Shown here: in pieces, positions 8,462 to 55,682 of the stretch
Layout: the number at the start of each line of letters is the position of its first letter
Position numbering within the stretch: the first letter of the stretch is position 1
NCBI GenBank assembly: GCA_034520365.1
Contig: JAXHNP010000007.1
Span: 496,001 to 560,000 of the forward strand
DNA from: Desulfobacterales bacterium
GTDB lineage: Bacteria; Desulfobacterota; Desulfobacteria; Desulfobacterales; Desulfosalsimonadaceae
DNA: 64,000 nt
Direction of reading: 5' to 3'
Position numbers and translations under genes: made by a program
The notes under the pieces: model-generated
Databases searched by the model: none
Told to the model about the DNA's origin: nothing
What the model saw: only the letters and a program-made list of their open reading frames with translations

Positions 8462-13397
<4,936 letters not shown>

Positions 13398-13461
13398 GAT
13401 CTTCCATGTGTTTGTTTAAAGGGGTTTCGCCTCAGTAACTTTGGTTTGGGCCCATAATATA

Positions 13462-13535
13462 CAACCTTTTTTAAATATATACAAATAATCTTGACATACC
13501 CGGGAAAATTGAATATATATTCAACCTTTTGTAAA
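13462..13535 (+). promoter_or_regulatory. Promoter of the dsr operon with palindrome and direct repeats
   Basis: A strong sigma-70-type promoter is visible: TTGACA at 13491-13496, 17 bases, then TATATA at 13514-13519. A perfect 16-base palindrome TTGAATATATATTCAA (13509-13524) covers the -10. A direct repeat CAACCTTTT-N-TAAA occurs at 13462-13475 and again at 13522-13535, exactly 60 bases apart. These surround the promoter and could be regulator sites. The promoter would drive the RsbRD gene and dsrMKJOP. Confidence 0.65.
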
Positions 13536-13602
13536 CCTATCCCAAACGTTTCATCTGATCATGAAATGTTTAATTATGTCAAATAGTAACAGGTAACTGA
13601 GC

Positions 13603-14148
13603 ATGAATCCGGAAACCCTATTATCGCAAAAGCGGAAAAAAATTATCAACCAATGGTTTGATGCGGTCATTGCCGCTTATCCGGACGACTCCACCCAATT
13701 TTTCAAAAAAACCGCCGATCCGTTTGCCAACCCGGTGGGCAGCACCATCGAGCGTTCCTTAAATGAGTTGTTCGATGAATTAATCAAATCCGAATGGGAT
13801 CAGGAAGCGGTTAAAAACGCTATTGACGGAATTATCCGGATTCAATCTGTGCAGGAGTTCCAACCGTCGGATGCCATCGGGTTTATCTTCTCCATTAAGC
13901 CATCGATTCGAAAACGCCTGACAAAATATGAGAATGAAAAAGCGGTTAAAGCCTATCTGGACGCGCTGGATGCCAATATCGAACAGTTGCTGCGCATTGC
14001 GTTTGATCTCTACATGGAGTGCCGCCAGAAGGTTTTTTTGATGCGCGCCAATCAGTCACGGGACCGGGTGCGCCAACTGTTGATCAAAAAGGGATATATC
14101 GAGGAGATTCCCGAAAAAGGAAACAACCTTGAAGATATTATTGCATAG
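13603..14148 (+). CDS. RsbRD N-terminal domain protein preceding dsrM
   Basis: A 181-residue helical protein resembling the RsbRD N-terminal domain (LLSQKRKKIINQWFDAVIAAYP at the start, then PVGSTIERSLNELFDEL). A related gene commonly sits directly before dsrM in sulfate-reducing Desulfobacterota. The homologous domain in Gram-positive bacteria senses signals for stress-sigma control or helps build globin-like sensors, but here there is no STAS or kinase partner. It has no membrane segment. It shares the operon promoter, and 46 bases separate it from dsrM. A regulatory or assembly role for the Dsr complex is inference. Confidence 0.72.
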   Translation: MNPETLLSQKRKKIINQWFDAVIAAYPDDSTQFFKKTADPFANPVGSTIERSLNELFDELIKSEWDQEAVKNAIDGIIRIQSVQEFQPSDAIGFIFSIKPSIRKRLTKYENEKAVKAYLDALDANIEQLLRIAFDLYMECRQKVFLMRANQSRDRVRQLLIKKGYIEEIPEKGNNLEDIIA

Positions 14149-14194
14149 CCGGACCATTAACAAACAGGTTAAACTGTAAAGCGAGGTAATGTCA

Positions 14195-15190
14195 ATGAAT
14201 GTCAGTTATTTGTATTCGCTTCTGGCGGTGATCGTACTGGGATTAATCGCTTATGCGGGAGCGGCCATCGGACTGGAAGCCCTCTTTGGTATTGTAATCC
14301 CCTACCTGGCGGTTCTGGTATTTTTTCTGGGGTTTATCAACAAGGTGCTTGACTGGGCCAAATCCCCGGTGCCGTTCAGGATTACCACCACCTGCGGGCA
14401 GCAGACGTCCCAAGACTGGATCAAACAATCAAAAATCGACAATCCAAGTACCACCACCGGCGTCATTATCCGGATGCTGCTTGAGATCCTGCTGTTCCGC
14501 TCCCTGTTCAGAAATACCCGGGTGGAAATTAAAGGGAAAACGGTTGCCTACAAATGGGTGGTCTGGCTCTGGCTGTTTGCCATTATGTTTCACTATTCCT
14601 TTCTGGTTGTGGTGATTCGCCATTTGCGCTTCTTTGTGGAGCCGGTGCCCTTTTTCGTCTCTTCGCTGGAGGCTGTTGACGGCATGCTGCAGATCGGGCT
14701 GCCGGGGCTTTTCCTCTCCGGCGTGGTGCTGGTGGGGGCGGCCACCCTGCTCCTGCTCCGCCGGATACTTCTGCCGAAAATGAATTATTTCTCCCGGCCG
14801 GCGGATTACTTCCCCTTGTTTCTGATCATCGGCATCGCCCTGACCGGGATTCTGATGCGCCATTTTACCAAGGTGGACGTAGTGAAGGTCAAGGAGCTTA
14901 CCCTGGGGCTTGCCTCTTTTCATCCCGGTATACCGGAAGGTGGGGTGGGCGCCCTGTTTTACGTGCATATCTTTTTTGTAAGCCTCTTGGTCGCCTATAT
15001 CCCGTTCAGTAAAATCATGCACATGGGCGGGGTTTTCCTGAGCCCCACCCGGAACCTGGCCAACAACAATCGCATGAAGCGGCACATCAACCCGTGGAAT
15101 CCGAGTGTTAAAATCCATACCTATGAAGAATATGAAGAACATTTCAGGGATAAACTCAAAGAAGCGGGCATCCCGGTGGAAAAGGAGTAG
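14195..15190 (+). CDS. dsrM: DsrM, heme b membrane subunit of the DsrMKJOP complex
   Basis: A 331-residue integral membrane protein of the NarI-like family, the quinone-facing heme b subunit of DsrMKJOP. Hydrophobic segments lie at about 4-25, 27-45, 110-130, 160-185 and 200-220, with a further one near 265-285. Histidines in the helices can supply heme ligands. An ATG also exists at 14189, but the AGCGAGG ribosome site ends two bases before it and eight bases before the ATG at 14195, so the latter is chosen. dsrK starts two bases after the stop. Confidence 0.93.
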   Translation: MNVSYLYSLLAVIVLGLIAYAGAAIGLEALFGIVIPYLAVLVFFLGFINKVLDWAKSPVPFRITTTCGQQTSQDWIKQSKIDNPSTTTGVIIRMLLEILLFRSLFRNTRVEIKGKTVAYKWVVWLWLFAIMFHYSFLVVVIRHLRFFVEPVPFFVSSLEAVDGMLQIGLPGLFLSGVVLVGAATLLLLRRILLPKMNYFSRPADYFPLFLIIGIALTGILMRHFTKVDVVKVKELTLGLASFHPGIPEGGVGALFYVHIFFVSLLVAYIPFSKIMHMGGVFLSPTRNLANNNRMKRHINPWNPSVKIHTYEEYEEHFRDKLKEAGIPVEKE

Positions 15191-15192
15191 AT

Positions 15193-16812
15193 ATGTCAGA
15201 AGTCCCAAAACCCGATGAGTTGATTGAGAACATAGATCATACCCCCCCGGAGGAGGAGTGGGAGAAGATTGAGTCCCCCATTACCGAGGGCCGGTTTTCC
15301 TATCCGGCCAAAGGCAAGAACTTAGAGGTCATGGAGTTTCGCGCGCCGGGGGAGTGGTCGCCGAAGGATGAAGAGTGGCCCTTGCCGGACAACTGGCAGG
15401 AAATTATCCATGAGGGTTTCAAGGAGCGGCTGGAGAAATACCGCTCCCTGAAGGTCTTTATGGATATCTGCGTCCGGTGCGGGGCCTGCGCGGACAAATG
15501 CCATTACTTTATCGGCACCGGCGACCCCAAGAATATGCCGGTGGTGCGGGCCGAGCTTTTGCGCTCCATCTATCGCAAGGATTTTACCACCGCCGGCAAG
15601 ATCCTGGGCTCCATTGCGGGCGGCCGGAGTCTCACCAAGGATACAATCAAGGAATGGTTCTCCTACTTCTATCAATGCTCGGAATGCCGGCGCTGCTCGG
15701 TCTTCTGCCCCTATGGGATTGATACGGCGGAAGTGACCATGATGGGCCGCGAGCTTTTAAATCTTCTGGGGCTTAACATCAACTGGATCATGGAGCCGGT
15801 GGCCAACTGCTTCCGCACCGGAAACCATCTGGGCATCCAACCCCAGGCGTTTAAGGAAATAGTGGATTTCTTGACCGATGATATCGAGGAGATCACCGGT
15901 ATCAAGATAAACCCGAGTTTTAACCGGAAAGGCGCCGAAATCCTGTTTATCACGCCCTCCGGCGACTACTTTGCCGATCCCGGAACATATACGTTCATGG
16001 GATATCTGATGCTGTTTGAGGCGCTGGGCCTGGATTACACTTTGAGCACCTATGCCTCGGAAGGCGGCAACTTCGGCCTGTTTACATCATCGGATACCAT
16101 GAAAAAGCTAAACTCCAAAATGTATGCCGAAGCCCGCCGCCTGGGCGTTAAATGGATTCTGGGCGGGGAGTGCGGCCATATGTGGCGGGTGATCAACCAG
16201 TATATGGATACCATGAACGGCCCGGCCGATTTTATGGAAGTGCCGAAATCGCCGATCACCGGCACGGTGTTCAACAACGCGGCCTCCACTAAAATGGTGC
16301 ACATCACCGAGTTTACGGCGGATCTGATCCGGCACAACAAGCTAAAGCTTGATCCAAGCAGAAACGACAGCTACAAGGTCACCTTCCACGACTCCTGCAA
16401 CCCGTCCCGGGCCATGGGGCTTCTGGATGAGCCCCGTTATGTCATCCAGAACGTATGCAACAATTTCTATGAAATGCCGGAAAACACGATCCGGGAGCAG
16501 ACCTTCTGCTGCGGCAGCGGTTCCGGCTTAAATAACGAAGAAGTGATGGACCTGCGGTTAAGAGGCGGGCTGCCCCGGGCCAATGCCGTCAAGCATGTGT
16601 ATGAGAAATACGGGGTCAATATGCTGGCCTGCATCTGCGCCATCGACCGGGCGGCCTTTCCGCCGCTTATGGAATACTGGGTGCCTGAGGTGGGAACCAC
16701 GGGTGTCCATGAACTGGTGGCCAATGCCCTGGTAATGGACGGGGAAATCGAGCGAACCACGAACCTGCGGTTCGAACCCCTGAAGGAAGAGGAGGACGAA
16801 TCGGATGAATGA
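15193..16812 (+). CDS. dsrK: DsrK, HdrD-like catalytic iron-sulfur subunit
   Basis: A 539-residue cytoplasmic protein related to heterodisulfide reductase HdrD. Two [4Fe-4S] ferredoxin motifs are present: cysteines 93, 96, 99, 103 and 162, 165, 168, 172. The C-terminal half has CCG-domain signatures (HDSCNPSR ... FCCGSGSG ... CIC) that bind the unusual [4Fe-4S] catalytic cluster. DsrK is thought to reduce the DsrC trisulfide made by sulfite reductase, using electrons from DsrM. The final 8 bases overlap dsrJ, which suggests tight coupling. Confidence 0.96.
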   Translation: MSEVPKPDELIENIDHTPPEEEWEKIESPITEGRFSYPAKGKNLEVMEFRAPGEWSPKDEEWPLPDNWQEIIHEGFKERLEKYRSLKVFMDICVRCGACADKCHYFIGTGDPKNMPVVRAELLRSIYRKDFTTAGKILGSIAGGRSLTKDTIKEWFSYFYQCSECRRCSVFCPYGIDTAEVTMMGRELLNLLGLNINWIMEPVANCFRTGNHLGIQPQAFKEIVDFLTDDIEEITGIKINPSFNRKGAEILFITPSGDYFADPGTYTFMGYLMLFEALGLDYTLSTYASEGGNFGLFTSSDTMKKLNSKMYAEARRLGVKWILGGECGHMWRVINQYMDTMNGPADFMEVPKSPITGTVFNNAASTKMVHITEFTADLIRHNKLKLDPSRNDSYKVTFHDSCNPSRAMGLLDEPRYVIQNVCNNFYEMPENTIREQTFCCGSGSGLNNEEVMDLRLRGGLPRANAVKHVYEKYGVNMLACICAIDRAAFPPLMEYWVPEVGTTGVHELVANALVMDGEIERTTNLRFEPLKEEEDESDE

Positions 16813-17191
16813 TAAGGGAAAAATCATCGTCGGACTGATTATCTTCGTTGCCGTGTTTACATTTCCCTTCTGGTACAATCACGGGTCTGCAACACAGCCG
16901 CCGGAGCCGAAGCTGACCGATAAGGCCAAGAAGGCTGAAAAATGCGTTGAAGATACCACCTACATGCGCACCGAACATATGCAGATTCTTGATGAATGGC
17001 GGGATACGGTAACCCGCGAGGACAAACGGGTATACGTAAACAAAAGCGGCAAGGAATATATGGCAAGTCTTTCAAACACATGTATGGATTGCCATTCCAA
17101 CAAGGAAGACTTCTGTGACAAGTGTCACACCTATACATCGGTCGATCCTTACTGCTGGGACTGCCATACCTATCCGGAGGAGAAGAAGTGA
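16805..17191 (+). CDS. dsrJ: DsrJ, periplasmic triheme cytochrome c
   Basis: A 128-residue cytochrome with an N-terminal signal anchor (residues 7-25) and three heme c motifs: CMDCH (93-97), CDKCH (104-108) and CWDCH (117-121). Cys 47, in KAEKCVEDTTYMRTEHM, lies where characterised DsrJ proteins have the cysteine that serves as an axial heme ligand together with histidine. That identification rests on family knowledge. The protein is the periplasmic redox subunit of DsrMKJOP. It overlaps dsrK by 8 bases and the dsrO start by one base. Confidence 0.96.
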   Translation: MNDKGKIIVGLIIFVAVFTFPFWYNHGSATQPPEPKLTDKAKKAEKCVEDTTYMRTEHMQILDEWRDTVTREDKRVYVNKSGKEYMASLSNTCMDCHSNKEDFCDKCHTYTSVDPYCWDCHTYPEEKK

Positions 17192-17982
17192 TGGATGATT
17201 CAAGACGAAGCTTTTTAAAATTCGCAGGAATTTCAGCATTGGGGCTGGGTGGGGTATCAATCCTGACGGGTTTGAAGCCGGGAGCGGTCACTGCGGCGGA
17301 CACCGCGTCCGAGCCTCTCTATAAGAATACGGAAAAGGCGCTGACCGCCGAACGCTGGGGCATGGTGGTGGATACCCGCAAACTGACCCGGAGTCTGTGT
17401 GATAAAATGGTGGCTGCCTGCCACAAGACGCATAACGTCCCGGATCTTGACAATGACCGCCATACCATCAAATGGCTCTGGACAGACGGTTTTGAGCACA
17501 TCTTTCCCATGAAGCATGATCAATATCTGGCCGAGCGGCTGCACGGGCTGCCGATCCTTTCCCTTTGCAACCAGTGCAACAACCCGCCCTGTGTGCAGGC
17601 ATGTCCAACTCAGGCGACTTTCCAGCGTGAAGACGGCATCGTGATGATGGATTTTCATCGGTGCATCGGCTGCCGGTTCTGCATGGCCGCCTGCCCCTAT
17701 GGGTCCAGGAGTTTTAACTTCCGGGATCCGCGGCCGGCGATTAAAGAGGAAAATCCGGATTTTCCCACGCGGATGAAAGGCGTGGTGGAAAAATGCAATT
17801 TCTGCGCGGAGCGGTTGGCTGAGGGCAAAATGCCGGCCTGTGTTGAGGTGTCAGAGGGTGCTCTGGTATTCGGCGATCTCGAAGATCCGAACTCTGAGAT
17901 CCGGAAGGTGCTGCGGGAGAACTACGCGATCCGCCGCAAGCAGAGCCTGGGCACGAACCCTTCGGTATATTACATTATATGA
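17191..17982 (+). CDS. dsrO: DsrO, Tat-exported iron-sulfur subunit
   Basis: A 263-residue periplasmic ferredoxin-like subunit. The N-terminus SRRSFLKFAG is a Tat signal motif (twin Arg 5-6), followed by a hydrophobic stretch to about 27. Cysteine groups CNQCNNPPCVQACP, CIGCRFCMAACP and CNFCAERL...C fit three [4Fe-4S] clusters. The frame is open further upstream, but the ATG at 17191 follows GGAGG by 10 bases, overlaps the dsrJ stop as TGATG, and puts the Tat motif at the right position. Nine bases separate it from dsrP. Confidence 0.95.
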   Translation: MDDSRRSFLKFAGISALGLGGVSILTGLKPGAVTAADTASEPLYKNTEKALTAERWGMVVDTRKLTRSLCDKMVAACHKTHNVPDLDNDRHTIKWLWTDGFEHIFPMKHDQYLAERLHGLPILSLCNQCNNPPCVQACPTQATFQREDGIVMMDFHRCIGCRFCMAACPYGSRSFNFRDPRPAIKEENPDFPTRMKGVVEKCNFCAERLAEGKMPACVEVSEGALVFGDLEDPNSEIRKVLRENYAIRRKQSLGTNPSVYYII

Positions 17983-17990
17983 GGTAGATT

Positions 17991-19148
17991 ATGCTTGAAA
18001 AGGCGCTAAGAGGAAGTAAAGGCTATTGGGTGTGGCTGCTGGCCCTGCTTGCGGTCATCGGGGTTGGCTTCGGGGTGTATCTGCGCCAGCTCAACTTCGG
18101 GCTGGGCATTACCGGCATGAGCCGCGATGTATCCTGGGGGTTCTATATCGCCCAGTTTACATTTCTGGTCGGGGTGGCAGCCTCGGCCGTGATGCTGGTG
18201 ATTCCCTATTACCTGCATGATTACAAGAAATTCGGCAAGATCACGGTGCTGGGCGAGTTTCTGGCCGTCTCCTCGGTGATCATGTGTCTGCTGTTTATTA
18301 TTGCCGATCTCGGGCAGCCCATGCGGCTGTTCAATGTCTTGATCCATCCCACGCCCTATTCCATGCTCTTCTGGGACATGATCGTCTTGAACGGGTATCT
18401 GCTTTTAAATATTGTGATCGGCTGGAACGTGCTGGATGCGGAACGAAATGATGTGCCGCCCCCCCAATGGGTCAAACCGCTTATCTACTTGTCAATTCCC
18501 TGGGCCATCAGTATCCATACGGTCACCGCATTTCTTTACTGCGGTCTGCCCGGCCGGGGCTTCTGGCTGACGGCCGTACTGGCCCCCCGCTTTTTGGCCT
18601 CCGCGTTTGCCGCGGGTCCGGCATTTCTTATTCTGCTGGCTTTTATCGTTCGAAAGTTTGCCAACTACGATGTGGGGCGCGAGCAGATTCAGACCCTGGC
18701 CAAAATCGTCACCTACGGCGCCATTGCCAACATCTTCTTCTTTCTCTGTGAAGTCTTTGTTGCCGTATACAGTCAGATTCCGGAACACACCGCCCATCTT
18801 CAGTACCTGTTCTTCGGCCTCGAGGGCCATGGCGTGCTGGTGCCCTGGATGTGGACCTCGATATTTCTGATGATTACGGCCATCATATTGCTGGTAATCC
18901 CTGCGGCCCGAAAAAATGAGGCGGTCCTGGGAGTGGCCTGTGTGGCCATATTCGTGGGCATCTGGATTGATAAGGGGCTGGGGATGATTTCCGGCGGATT
19001 TATTCCCAATCCGCTTCACCATGTCCGCGAATATGTGCCCACGGTGCCGGAAATCATGATCACCATTGCGATCTATGCCACCGGATTTCTTATCCTCACG
19101 ATTCTCTACAAGGTTGTTGTGGGGGTTAAGCAGGAAACCGGCGAGTAA
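17991..19148 (+). CDS. dsrP: DsrP, NrfD-like quinone-interacting membrane subunit
   Basis: A 385-residue NrfD/PsrC-family protein with about ten predicted membrane helices, including one at residues 13-32. It pairs with DsrO to exchange electrons with the quinone pool. The segment MSRDVSWGFYIAQFTFLVG is typical of the NrfD family. It is the last gene of the operon, closed by a strong terminator 22 bases downstream. Together DsrM-K-J-O-P link periplasm, quinones and cytoplasmic DsrC. Confidence 0.95.
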   Translation: MLEKALRGSKGYWVWLLALLAVIGVGFGVYLRQLNFGLGITGMSRDVSWGFYIAQFTFLVGVAASAVMLVIPYYLHDYKKFGKITVLGEFLAVSSVIMCLLFIIADLGQPMRLFNVLIHPTPYSMLFWDMIVLNGYLLLNIVIGWNVLDAERNDVPPPQWVKPLIYLSIPWAISIHTVTAFLYCGLPGRGFWLTAVLAPRFLASAFAAGPAFLILLAFIVRKFANYDVGREQIQTLAKIVTYGAIANIFFFLCEVFVAVYSQIPEHTAHLQYLFFGLEGHGVLVPWMWTSIFLMITAIILLVIPAARKNEAVLGVACVAIFVGIWIDKGLGMISGGFIPNPLHHVREYVPTVPEIMITIAIYATGFLILTILYKVVVGVKQETGE

Positions 19149-19169
19149 GAAAGCTTCGAAACATAGTTA

Positions 19170-19202
19170 AAGGGTTCATTCTTTGGGATGAACCCTTTTT
19201 TT
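19170..19202 (+). terminator. Intrinsic terminator of the dsr operon
   Basis: A 10-base stem AAGGGTTCAT / ATGAACCCTT with an 8-base loop, followed directly by seven T residues. It lies 22 bases after dsrP and just before the rplU promoter. Confidence 0.92.
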
Positions 19203-19203
19203 A

Positions 19204-19246
19204 TTGACAAAATAAAAGTTTACTTTATACTTTTCCAGTTTATAAT
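19204..19246 (+). promoter_or_regulatory. Promoter(s) of the rplU-rpmA-obgE operon
   Basis: TTGACA at 19204-19209 and TATACT at 19226-19231 with a 16-base spacer form a good sigma-70 promoter. A second overlapping pair, TTTACT (19219) and TATAAT (19241-19246), also has a 16-base spacer. Either or both would start RNA about 30-45 bases before rplU. Confidence 0.68.
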
Positions 19247-19280
19247 ATAAAAGATAATTTTGATTGGAGGATACGATATT

Positions 19281-19592
19281 ATGTATGCGGTGATTGCCAC
19301 AGGCGGCAAACAATACCGGGTGAAAGAGGGCGACGTTCTCCGCATTGAGAAAATGCCGGGCAACGTGGGTGAGTCACTGGCGTTTGACAAAGTACTTCTT
19401 TTGTCAGACGGCAATGAATTAAACATCGGTGAGCCCACAGTGCCGAACGCCTCAGTCAATGCCCGGATTGTGGAGCAGGGAAAAGGAAAAAAGGTCCTGG
19501 TGTTCAAATATAAGCGGCGGAAACGGTATCGCCGCAAGCAGGGCCATCGACAGCCGTTTACCGCGGTTCAAATCGACAGTATCGGTCAATAA
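19281..19592 (+). CDS. rplU: Ribosomal protein L21
   Basis: A 103-residue L21 of the large ribosomal subunit. The start [14 protein letters not shown] and the basic C-terminal [16 protein letters not shown] segment are diagnostic. The ATG at 19281 has GGAGG ten bases upstream; the in-frame ATG at 19260 has no such site and adds seven non-conserved residues. rpmA follows after 11 bases. Confidence 0.97.
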
Positions 19593-19603
19593 GGAGTACA
19601 ACC

Positions 19604-19858
19604 ATGTCACATAAAAAAGCAGGCGGCAGTTCAAAGAACGGTCGGGACAGCAACGCCCAGCATCGCGGGGTCAAGCGCTATGGCGGCCAGAGTGTCAGGG
19701 CCGGCAACGTGCTCGTGCGTCAGGTGGGCACCAAAATTCACCCGGGCCAGAATGTCGGGATGGGAAAGGATTATACCCTGTTTTCAAAGATCGACGGCCG
19801 GGTTTCCTATGAACGCATGGGCCGGTCCAAAAAGCGGGTGAGCGTCTACGCCGTGTGA
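19604..19858 (+). CDS. rpmA: Ribosomal protein L27
   Basis: An 84-residue L27. The N-terminal [18 protein letters not shown], close to the peptidyl-transferase centre in ribosome structures, and [14 protein letters not shown] identify it. There is no N-terminal cleavable extension of the kind found in Firmicutes. The last four bases overlap the obgE GTG start, so obgE is translationally coupled. Confidence 0.97.
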
Positions 19859-20862
19859 AATTCATTGATGAAGCCGTAATTCGTGTCAGCGCCGGAAACG
19901 GCGGCCCGGGCTGTGTAAGCTTCAGGCGGGAAAAGTATGTTCCCAAGGGCGGCCCGGACGGCGGCGACGGCGGCAAAGGGGGGGATATCATTATCCAAAC
20001 CTCGGCGCGCCGGCGAACCCTATATCAATTTCGTTATAAAAAACACTTCAAAGCAGCCAACGGCAGCCCGGGGCAGGGCAAACAGAAGACCGGCAAAAAC
20101 GGGGAAAATGTCATCATCGAAGTTCCGCCGGGAACCATTGTCCGGGATGCGCAAACCGGCGATTTGATCAAGGATTTTACCCAAGCGGGCGAATCCTTAG
20201 TGCTCGCAAAAGGCGGAGTCGGGGGTCGGGGCAACCGGCGCTTTGTCAGTTCCACCAACCGGGCTCCGCGCCATGCCCAACCCGGCCTTGCCGGAGAGAC
20301 CCATTCCCTTCAACTAGAATTAAAGCTCCTGGCCGATATCGGTATTATCGGCTATCCCAATGCGGGCAAATCAACCTTGATTAGTCGAATTTCTTCGGCC
20401 CAGCCCAAGATCGCCGATTACCCGTTCACCACCCTTACCCCTGCTCTGGGCGTTGTGACCCCAAAAAGCGGGGAACCCTTTGCTGTTGCCGATATTCCCG
20501 GATTGATCGAAGGCGCCCACCACGGCGCCGGACTGGGCGATAAATTCTTAAAGCACGTGGAACGTACCCGGGTGCTTTTGCATTTAATCGACGCGGCGGC
20601 CATAGACCCCGCTGATCCGCTGCATGCATACAACGCCATCAACCGCGAGCTTGACGGGTATCAGCCGGGGCTTTTGGATAAGCCCCAATGTGTGGTATTA
20701 AATAAAATGGATCTGCCAAAGGCACAGGATAATGCCGACCGATTTCAGGCGGCCTTTTCCGGCTCCCGGCTTATGTACATTTCGGCTTACACCGGTTACA
20801 ATGTGTCTGCATTAATTGATCACTTAAACGAATTCATCAATGCGCATGCAGAAAAGCAATAG
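19855..20862 (+). CDS. obgE: Obg-family GTPase
   Basis: A 335-residue Obg/CgtA GTPase involved in 50S assembly and stress signalling. The glycine-rich Obg fold fills residues 1-158. The G domain follows with the P-loop GYPNAGKST (about 165), the DIPGLIEGA switch segment and the NKMDLP specificity motif. No long C-terminal acidic tail is present. The start is GTG (19855), overlapping the rpmA stop. Gene order rplU-rpmA-obgE-proB is widely conserved. Confidence 0.96.
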
Positions 20863-51510: not shown

Positions 51511-52626
51511 TTATTCAAAAAGCTTTTTGAATTCCCCGTATCCGGATTCTTTCAGTTCATCCTCAGGGATAAACCGAAGCGCGGCGGAGTTGATGCAGTA
51601 GCGCAAGCCCGTGGGCGGCGGCCCGTCGTCAAATACGTGGCCCAGATGCGAGTCTGCGTGCCGGCTTCGCACCTCCGTGCGGGTCATGAATAAGCTCCGG
51701 TCTTTCTTTTCCACCACGGCATCCGGTTTGATCGGCCGGGTAAAGCTCGGCCATCCGGTGCCGGACTCGAATTTGTCCGTTGACGAAAAAAGCGGCTCGC
51801 CGGAGACCACATCCACATATATGCCGGCTTTCTTGTTTTCCCAGTATTCATTGTCAAACGGCGGCTCGGTTTTATCTTTTCGGGTAACCGCGTATTGAAG
51901 GGGGGTGAGTTTTTCTTTCAATTCCGCATCCGGCGGCCGGCTATAAGCCCCGGTATCCTTTTCCGCTTCCTGCTCTACTTCCTTTTCGTTTTTCCACACC
52001 TTTGTCAGGAACTGATCCCGGCCGGAGCCGTGTCGATAGAATTTGTACCGGATGGGATGGGTTTTGTAATAATCCTGATGATAGTCTTCCGCCGGGTAGA
52101 ATTTATCCAGCGGCACGATTTCAGTGACAACCGGTTCTTTAAACCGCGCGGAGGCTTCCAGCTTTTTGCGGGATGCCCCGGCCAGCTTTTTTTGGTTTTC
52201 GTTTTCATAAAAAATTGCCGATCGATATTGCGATCCCCGGTCCACGAATGAGCCGCCCGCATCCGTGGGGTCAATCTGCCGCCAGAAAACATCCAGCAGC
52301 TGCTCATAGGAGATTTTTTCCGGATCATAGCTAACCTGAATGGCTTCGGCGTGGCCGGTTCTGCCGGCTGACACTTCCTCATAGGCCGGGTTTTCAGTAT
52401 GTCCCCCGGTGTAGCCGGAGACTACCTTGTATACGCCGTCAAGCTTTTCAAACGGCGCCTCCATGCACCAGAAACAGCCGCCGGCAAACGTCGCGGTCTC
52501 AAGATTTTCCGGTGCGTCTTTATTTTCCGGCGAATTGGTGCCGACCGCATCGCCCTGACAGCCAGTATATGTGCCCATGATGAATAACCCCATAAAAATT
52601 AATATGATATGTTTAAAATAGGTCAT
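51511..52626 (-). CDS. msrAB: Fused methionine sulfoxide reductase MsrA-MsrB, probably exported
   Basis: A 371-residue bifunctional enzyme. The N-terminus is a lipoprotein-like signal (hydrophobic to about 20, Cys 23 in TYTGC), suggesting a cell-envelope location. MsrA (about 45-200) has the catalytic [11 protein letters not shown] (Cys 51) and reduces the S-sulfoxide. MsrB (about 230-371) has [16 protein letters not shown] and the catalytic Cys in [11 protein letters not shown], and reduces the R-form; its usual zinc CxxC pairs are absent. The gene lies downstream of a decayed region and has a normal, intact structure. Confidence 0.93.
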
Positions 52627-53981: not shown

Positions 53982-55682
53982 TTATTCGCTCATTTCATAG
54001 GTGTCCCGAAGCGCATACACATGGTTTTGCCAGAACCGGTCGAACCGCTCGTAGTCCACACTCGGTTTTCTGAGCATCTTCAGGCACATTTCCTGCTGTT
54101 TTTCGCTGCTGTCGCGCTTGTAATAGACTTCCAGCGCATATTTTGAAAAATCGCGGACCATGAAGTCAAAAATCTGCTCCAGCAGGTCATCGTCGAATTT
54201 CTCCATATTGTATTTCTCGATAATCAGCTGCCCGTAGGCCACCAGGGTGAAGAGTTCGCCGATGGTAAGCAGAAAGTCAATGTTCTGGGCCTGCTCTTTG
54301 GAGGGCGCGGCATTGACGAGAAAGTCCGTAAATGCCTTGATCTGCTCCTTGAACACATTGATGTTCGGGGTGTCAACGCTGTTGTAGGCGAGGTTGTAGT
54401 CGTGGAACTGGATTTTTCCAAGTCCCTTGGTCGGTCCCTGGTTAAACAGGAATTCGTCATCCGCCGGGGCATCCTGTTTGGGAATTTCCGGAAATTCCGC
54501 CGGATTGAAGAAGTAATTGGCCATAAACTTGATGATAAGGGCCATGTTCACATGGACCGTGCCTTCCAGCTTGGGCAGGGACCGGATGTCTTTGGCCGCC
54601 ATTTCAAAGTAGACGTCTTTTTCAAATCCGCGGGCGGCGATCACGTCCCAGAGCAGGTTGATGACCTCTTCGCCCTGGGTGGGCACCTTCATTTTAACCA
54701 TCGGGTTATACAAAAGATACCGGCGGTCATCGGCCGAGGCGGAACGGAAATAGTCGGTGGCCCGCTGGGAGAAAATCTTCATGGCCGCCAGGCGGGTATA
54801 GGCATCCACGAACAGCTGCTTGATGTGCGGAAAATCCGTGACATAGTTGCCGTAGAGGTTGCGGTGGCTGGCATGGTTGATGGCCTCATAAAAGGCGTGG
54901 GTGCAGATGCCGATGGCGCCCCAGCCCAGGTTGAATTTGCCGACGTTGACGGTGTTTAATGCCGCATCCCATGCTTCCCGGCCGTATTCGAGGATGTCGT
55001 CATCGGTAATCGGATAGCTGTTTAAGGCGTATTCCGCCACATAGCCCTCCCAGTTGACCACGTTCTGGATAAGATCATAGTTTTCATGATAGGGGCTTAC
55101 CGCAAAAAAGACGTAGTCATCGGTTTCCGAGTCCTTGCCGAAAGTGGAAACCAGGGCCGCCTTGTTGGCATTGCCGATATAGTATTTGCCGCCGTCTGCC
55201 ACGTATTTGCCGTCGCCTAAAGGCGTCAGCGACATTTCCGATGAATAGAGGTCCGCCCCGTGGGCCCGCTCGGAGAGGCCGAAGGCAAAGATGCCGCCGT
55301 CTTTTAACATCTGGGCGGTTTTTTGCTTGATTGTTTCATTCTTGCTCATCCAGATGGGGCCCAGGCCCAGGATGGAAACCTGCCAGGCATACCAGTGGGA
55401 AAGGTTGTAAAAACCCAGAATTTCATTAAAATCGCAGTTGCGGTAGGTGTCCCAGCGGGTGTCCGGGTCATCCGGGGCATAGGGGGCCGGGGTCAGCAGC
55501 TTGGCAAAGACCTGGTTTTCTTTTAGAAAATCAATAAAGTCCTGGTACCAGATTCGTTCGTGGCTGGCCTCCTTGAGTTTGGCCTTGCCCTTGTTTTCAA
55601 AGAATTCAACGGTTTTTTTCATCAACTCCCGGGATTCGGGGTCGAGATGTTCAAACGTTTCGGTTTTGGGGTTAAGCAGCAT
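53982..55682 (-). CDS. Acyl-CoA dehydrogenase family protein
   Basis: A 566-residue FAD-dependent acyl-CoA dehydrogenase-like protein. The FAD and substrate part includes FAFGLSERAHGADLYSSEM, then TPLGDGKYVADGGKYYIGNA. The domain typical of ACAD continues to about 450, and a C-terminal helical extension follows to 566, as in longer ACADs. Substrate unknown. A GGAG ribosome site is present, and the upstream gene on the same strand encodes a MarR regulator, 124 bases away. The promoter region carries an operator-like copy of the MarR site (see finding), so control by it is likely. Confidence 0.86.
   Translation of the reverse strand: MLLNPKTETFEHLDPESRELMKKTVEFFENKGKAKLKEASHERIWYQDFIDFLKENQVFAKLLTPAPYAPDDPDTRWDTYRNCDFNEILGFYNLSHWYAWQVSILGLGPIWMSKNETIKQKTAQMLKDGGIFAFGLSERAHGADLYSSEMSLTPLGDGKYVADGGKYYIGNANKAALVSTFGKDSETDDYVFFAVSPYHENYDLIQNVVNWEGYVAEYALNSYPITDDDILEYGREAWDAALNTVNVGKFNLGWGAIGICTHAFYEAINHASHRNLYGNYVTDFPHIKQLFVDAYTRLAAMKIFSQRATDYFRSASADDRRYLLYNPMVKMKVPTQGEEVINLLWDVIAARGFEKDVYFEMAAKDIRSLPKLEGTVHVNMALIIKFMANYFFNPAEFPEIPKQDAPADDEFLFNQGPTKGLGKIQFHDYNLAYNSVDTPNINVFKEQIKAFTDFLVNAAPSKEQAQNIDFLLTIGELFTLVAYGQLIIEKYNMEKFDDDLLEQIFDFMVRDFSKYALEVYYKRDSSEKQQEMCLKMLRKPSVDYERFDRFWQNHVYALRDTYEMSE

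Follow-up and report, generated by a model that had tools for sequence, protein, structure and literature searches.

We find that positions 13491-13530 of the window (the whole 64,000-nucleotide stretch of DNA analyzed here, from a member of the Desulfobacterales) probably form an RpoD-type core promoter with a CTTTT element in its start region, and that the 16-base palindrome over the -10 and the repeat copy upstream are probably incidental. Comparison with the corresponding regions of related genomes leads us to give this reading a probability of about 0.8. A separate operator appears unneeded for what is seen.

All of the features named lie in the 205-base gap between a divergent gene, which from its likeness we take to be asnS, and the gene for a stand-alone RsbRD_N-domain protein that opens the dsrMKJOP operon (Table 1). 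By tblastn, 18 of 30 loci have a match to the asnS-like neighbor next to RsbRD_N, fragmented in one of them, and the RsbRD_N protein is matched in 53 of 60 genomes, its own included. The genes that follow it stand in the order M-K-J-O-P with the expected domains, an assignment made from Pfam domains, gene order, and CxxCH motifs. We know of no role in sulfate respiration for an RsbRD_N protein heading dsrMKJOP, and the name RsbRD is not used in the dsrM literature among the matches listed. Rfam models searched over 12000-20000 gave nothing at gathering threshold that would point to an RNA element around the leader. After dsrP, a terminator-like stem is followed directly by the rplU promoter TTGACA-N16-TATACT (window 19169-19231).

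Table 1. Features of the asnS-RsbRD_N intergenic region and of the adjoining genes, in positions of the window
Feature	Positions	Strand	Basis or remark
asnS-like gene, divergent neighbor	12015..13397	-	Class II tRNA synthetase; PF00152 and PF01336
Putative -10 TATATT of divergent asnS promoter	13456..13461	-	Consensus match only
Upstream repeat copy CAACCTTTTTTAAA	13462..13475	.	Not conserved; within putative asnS promoter spacer
Putative -35 TTGTAT of divergent asnS promoter	13479..13484	-	Consensus match only
-35 TTGACA of RsbRD_N-dsrMKJOP promoter	13491..13496	+	Identical in 4 same-genus genomes
Palindrome TTGAATATATATTCAA, 16 bases	13509..13524	.	Left arm formed by TTGA ahead of the -10; right arm enters the start-region element
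-10 TATATA, 17-base spacer	13514..13519	+	Aligned with relatives' TATAGT/TATAGG/TATAAA at 17 (some 16 or 18)
Downstream repeat copy CAACCTTTTGTAAA	13522..13535	+	Includes start-region element and right end of palindrome
Start-region element CTTTT	13526..13530	+	Predicted transcription start at it or a few bases before
RsbRD_N-domain protein, first gene of operon, 181 aa	13603..14148	+	PF14361, E 5.2e-19
dsrM-like, nitrate reductase gamma-type membrane subunit	14189..15190	+	PF02665; named by gene order and domain
dsrK-like, 4Fe-4S / CCG-domain protein	15193..16812	+	PF13183, PF13534, PF02754; named by gene order and domains
dsrJ-like small protein, CxxCH motifs	16805..17191	+	Translation; no Pfam match; assigned by order and CxxCH
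dsrO-like ferredoxin protein	17191..17982 (predicted start)	+	PF13247 on 17185-17982
dsrP-like NrfD-type membrane protein	17991..19148	+	PF03916

The core promoter is widely shared among relatives. Among 50 orthologous RsbRD_N-dsrMKJOP upstream regions, taken from the 53 matched genomes with G042 (contig end), G055, and G059 left out, 48 combine an exact TTGACA with a -10-like box that starts with TA after 16-18 bases, and two do not; we call a promoter kept when it has this exact TTGACA and a TA-starting -10. The exact TTGACA recurs in 52 of 54 further nonredundant named loci (80, minus 26 identical to earlier ones). An alignment of the same-genus regions has its longest conserved stretches around the promoter in ACAAATAA-CTTGACA, TTGAATATATATTC, and CTTTT, in that order. 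The region thus has what marks an RpoD-type promoter, hexamers 16-18 bases apart that are conserved before an orthologous gene, and we consider conservation of the core promoter across the order well supported. The preliminary description had likewise placed a promoter before the dsr operon. Its wording of a "near-ideal" promoter holds for the -35 and the spacing and is limited to them, because TATATA matches TATAAT at only four of six positions and the promoter is absent from the calls of a consensus promoter scan of the window. The register of the -10 is ambiguous: besides TATATA at a spacing of 17 bases, it can be read as TATATT (13516-13521; 5/6 match to TATAAT) at 19, and a script allowing spacings of 16-19 picked the latter in all four same-genus rows.

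The palindrome had been put forward as a candidate operator, and its sequence and its position over the -10 are as described, the middle eight bases, ATATATAT, being self-complementary and covering the -10. A dedicated dsrMKJOP repressor that blocks the -10 from this site is, in our judgment, very unlikely. The perfect 16-base dyad is exact in three of the four same-genus genomes, and a perfect palindrome of at least 16 bases arises in only 11 of 1,000 dinucleotide-preserving shuffles of the 205-base intergenic region. It occurs once in the window with up to three mismatches allowed (shuffle mean 0.25). A search of the whole genome cuts both ways: it returns nine sites within two mismatches (one exact, eight at two mismatches), against none for the reversed-pattern control, but of the four two-mismatch sites examined, three lie inside open frames of 873-1617 bases (the other is in a 249-base frame), and the eight include one sequence present three times and another present twice. 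Longer perfect palindromes are present elsewhere in the window, at 17748-17765 (18 bases, inside the dsrO-like gene), 51513-51532 (20 bases), and 54481-54498 (18 bases).

It is on conservation, by a test set beforehand, that the operator reading fails. The exact palindrome is present in 3 of the 50 orthologous regions, all of one genus (G000, which is the genome of the window, G001, and G003), in none of the 46 regions outside the genus, and in none of the 54 further loci. In G002, the fourth genome of the genus, the right arm TTCAA has become TTCCA with the left arm unchanged, so that the change is uncompensated; a dyad kept among orthologs with compensating changes, the mark of an operator for a dedicated repressor, was not found. 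Relatives have at this place, for example, TTGATATAAAC, TTGCATATAGTCAAC, and TTGTTTATAGC, which largely retain the -10 and its preceding TTG but not the full dyad. Scoring of dyad pairs is less clear-cut, with a mean of 5.06 of 8 in the 48 promoters vs. 4.72 in 2,000 recombined halves, an excess carried mainly by the four same-genus rows (8, 8, 7, and 8 of 8); by arithmetic from the individual scores, the mean for the 44 rows from other genera is about 4.8. The palindrome appears to be mostly a by-product of an ordinary conserved promoter, in which the -10, the TTGA beside it, and the first part of the start-region element would have come to pair by chance in one genus.

The direct repeat fares similarly. 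Its copies start 60 bases apart at 13462 and 13522, as had been reported; they are 14-mers that differ by one mismatch, and such a pair (at most one mismatch) is held by 8 of 1,000 dinucleotide-preserving shuffles of the same intergenic region. Because 11 and 8 of 1,000 shuffles reach them, palindrome and repeat are each mildly unusual, not extraordinary. That one protein binds both copies, looping or bridging the 60 bases between, had been suggested from a spacing "near six helical turns"; the distance is in fact 5.7 turns at 10.5 bp, and we consider the suggestion extremely improbable. The downstream copy reads CAACCTTTT in G000, G001, and G003 and CCATCTTTT in G002, whereas the upstream copy was not found at the aligned place in any of the three same-genus relatives (G001-G003), and only the window's own region among the 50 contains CAACCTTTT twice; joint conservation of both copies and of their phase, as looping between spaced repeats would entail, is thus not seen, and we reject looping. 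The upstream copy falls inside the 17-base spacer of a minus-strand TTGTAT-N17-TATATT, the putative asnS promoter, and we read it as a nonconserved resemblance within that putative divergent promoter.

We also compared the intergenic region with the binding sites of known anaerobic and redox regulators, of which FNR has the consensus TTGAT-N4-ATCAA and Rex TTGTTAA-N4-TTAACAA. The TTGA...TCAA ends of the palindrome recall FNR-type half-sites. The best matches in the intergenic region miss 4/12 bases for HcpR/CRP, 6/16 for a second HcpR form, 3/10 specified bases for FNR, and 4/14 for Rex. Neither TTGTGA-N6-TCACAA nor TTGAT-N4-ATCAA nor a Rex site is present; the palindrome has the form TTGA-N8-TCAA, not N6, and is the first best match for none of the four consensuses (ties beyond the first not being compared). 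Binding of an HcpR/FNR- or Rex-type regulator at the palindrome promoter therefore seems to us highly improbable, and we discard these sites as candidates. For Desulfovibrio, HcpR sites at sat and apsAB have been predicted in a study that also comments on DsrAB being missing from the HcpR regulon so predicted (PMC545781, in the parts considered here). As described there, these sites resemble the dsr palindrome in being palindromes over the -10 of sulfate-reduction promoters, read as repressor sites, and differ from it in sequence, length, and half-site spacing, the dsr palindrome being confined to one of the genera compared. Repression of sat by Rex in D. vulgaris, described from earlier work in a passage of PMC7531388, is likewise transcriptional control of a sulfate-respiration gene, whereas the dsr intergenic region has no good Rex-like site. 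The earlier remark that no dsr regulator is clearly established agrees with what these parts of PMC545781 and PMC7531388 say.

What does extend beyond the genus is a T-tract downstream of the -10, which we assign to the start region by its distance from the -10. To describe it, we count offsets from the first base of the -10 and compare kept promoters of several sets of loci. The dsrA set draws on 49 of the 51 genomes with a match, two partial matches being excluded, and has 44 kept. The aprB set has 50 of 58 listed matches, with 37 kept; two aprB-like matches are present in nine genomes, and five genomes contributed two loci each, some of them probably nonrespiratory, so that the set is diluted. 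For sat, 40 matches of the short type, with frames of 398-475 residues (one truncated by the end of its contig), were picked by hand, the longer frames of roughly 570-590 residues being excluded, and 39 were kept. As controls, we used rplU (30 loci from the 51 genomes with a match, 29 kept) and SRB-type adk (30 of 57, 28 kept). A T stands at offsets 13 and 14 in 94% and 90%, respectively, of the 48 RsbRD_N-dsrMKJOP promoters, and at offset 13 in 98% of 44 dsrA, 95% of 37 aprB, and 97% of 39 sat promoters, percentages that overstate independence because the rows of each set are related. The same position holds T in 93% of 28 adk and 97% of 29 rplU promoters, and in 35% of 126 other TTGACA-N17-TATA sites among the matches listed. 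Being common to rplU and adk, the T-tract is not a sulfate signal; it suggests that the order may favor such start regions more widely. In adk (L414-L443) and rplU (L252-L281), the tract at this distance often takes the forms ATTTT or GTTT.

The form with a preceding C has a narrower distribution. CTTT at offsets 8-13 is found in 33/48 RsbRD_N-dsrMKJOP, 32/44 dsrAB, 20/37 aprBA, and 25/39 sat promoters, compared with 3/29 for rplU and 4/28 for adk; six-base windows elsewhere in the same regions contain CTTT in 0 to 6 sequences per set. A stricter rule, which keeps 47, 44, 35, and 32 promoters of the RsbRD_N, dsrA, aprB, and sat sets, gives CTTT in 32, 32, 19, and 21 of them, the same trend. 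Counted by genus, CTTT is present in 13/27, 16/24, 11/23, and 13/22 genera for the same four sets, and counted by genome in the window's family, in 28/30, 23/27, 15/22, and 17/25, with rplU at 0/23. Among the matches listed for eight genomes of the family, 9 of 9 sulfate-operon sites have CTTT vs. 3 of 126 other sites (Fisher p ~7e-12, kinship ignored); the 15 listed rows of G004, left out of the 126 and counted separately, add two with CTTT among the other TTGACA-N17-TATA sites listed. Against three controls (the other TTGACA-N17-TATA sites, rplU, and adk), we reject a generic promoter property as the source of CTTT: rplU and adk share the T-tract but mostly not the preceding C. Membership of adk in the CTTT group, which one same-genus match (L247) had suggested and for which the adk set was chosen, was not borne out. 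The T-rich start-region motif thus appears to be often kept at the relatives' other sulfate-respiration genes.

Searching whole genomes with TTGACAN{16,18}TAWAWNN{2,7}CTTT yields four matches in the 4.3-Mb G000, three at dsrAB, aprBA, and the RsbRD_N-dsrMKJOP promoter and a fourth within an open frame of 2307 bases. The four same-genus genomes together give 23 matches vs. 1 for the reversed control, of which 8 belong to dsrAB and RsbRD_N, 1 to aprBA, and 1 to sat (L241, where the contig ends, so called solely by likeness to the sat promoter of G001), and 13 lie elsewhere, one of them before an SRB-type adk; 20 of the 23 were inspected by script, and the coordinates of the other three identify them as the RsbRD_N-dsrMKJOP promoter of G000, G001, and G003. 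The sat promoter of the window's own genome has TTTT, without CTTT. These figures bear on the idea that CTTT is contacted by an unknown regulator whose regulon would comprise sat, aprBA, dsrAB, and dsrMKJOP, an idea favored by the enrichment of CTTT at the four sulfate operons, by the counts per genome in the family, and by the three sulfate operons among the four matches in G000. Against it, the conserved core of four to six bases is short for a regulator, and the common part of the element is not sulfate-specific because the T-tract without the C is equally conserved at rplU and adk. The looser VTTT pattern (A, C, or G before TTT) gives 7 matches in G000 and 17 in G036, with three sulfate operons in each. 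We regard such a regulator as quite unlikely.

Outside the family, the CTTT form weakens: among the further named loci, CTTT is present in 12/52 and at least CTT in 34/52. In a phylum-wide draw of 148 genomes, 79 had dsrA, loci were obtained for 30, and 26 were scanned, two of them from the same order; the best-scoring promoter has CTTT in 2/26, several of the scores being too poor to trust. The CTTT form thus looks restricted in the phylum-wide sample, which does not prove its absence elsewhere. Two other patterns appeared. A TTTTTTA-like run stands ahead of the dsrAB -35 in most of the order's loci shown (e.g., L056, L320, L321, and L329), and likewise in several other families of the phylum. 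In G000, a tRNA-Leu gene (G000:C2:484050; L410) has a TTGACA-N17-TATA promoter, and rows like it, with a AAATCAATCC-like tail, are present in other genomes of the family.

The dsr promoter is like an RpoD (sigma-70) core promoter in its TTGACA, 17-base spacer, and TATA-type -10, all kept in relatives, and differs by the extra T-tract at a fixed distance after the -10, a feature not known among the standard sigma-70 elements. We propose that the housekeeping, presumably RpoD-type, polymerase would bind TTGACA and the TATA-type -10. From the spacing, the DNA would open over about 13514-13530 and synthesis would begin at about 13524-13528. CTTTT, some seven bases downstream of the -10, would then coincide with the first nucleotide or follow it closely, in the predicted initially transcribed region. 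There, the run may affect start choice, slippage, or early pausing, and tuning by the T-tract could let the sulfate-respiration genes be expressed strongly and in parallel with no need of a dedicated operator.

In two related systems, the sequence that immediately follows the start has been proposed to set the output of initiation, as far as the parts of the sources considered here describe them. A lac consensus promoter variant pauses in vitro after 6 nt, as set by the transcribed sequence and the 5' end (PMC5902446), and the T5 N25 promoter is treated as a case of the initially transcribed sequence (PMC12464699). The effects in the lac variant were measured in vitro and involve a T+6G+7 motif, whereas our case is comparative and concerns a T-run near +2; by analogy, we infer that the early-pausing behavior of the variant might carry over to the dsr promoter. 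A bolder version, which we hold only tentatively and think rather unlikely, is that in this order sat, aprBA, dsrAB, and RsbRD_N-dsrMKJOP share a start-region code, a CTTT run at a fixed distance from the -10, through which the polymerase itself sets their joint output, with no dedicated regulator; the code would act via start choice, slippage, or NTP-sensitive early synthesis. We found no literature titles on a shared start-region motif of sulfate-respiration promoters in a search that covers subscription literature poorly and so is weak evidence of absence.

To our knowledge, the switching of sulfate-respiration genes is poorly known outside Desulfovibrio. Our comparison removes a weak operator candidate and supports promoter conservation throughout the order at each of four operons, and it is the conserved short start-region element that seems worth following. 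If this element does set expression, the coexpression of sat, apr, and dsr would be a property of the promoter itself instead of the work of a repressor.
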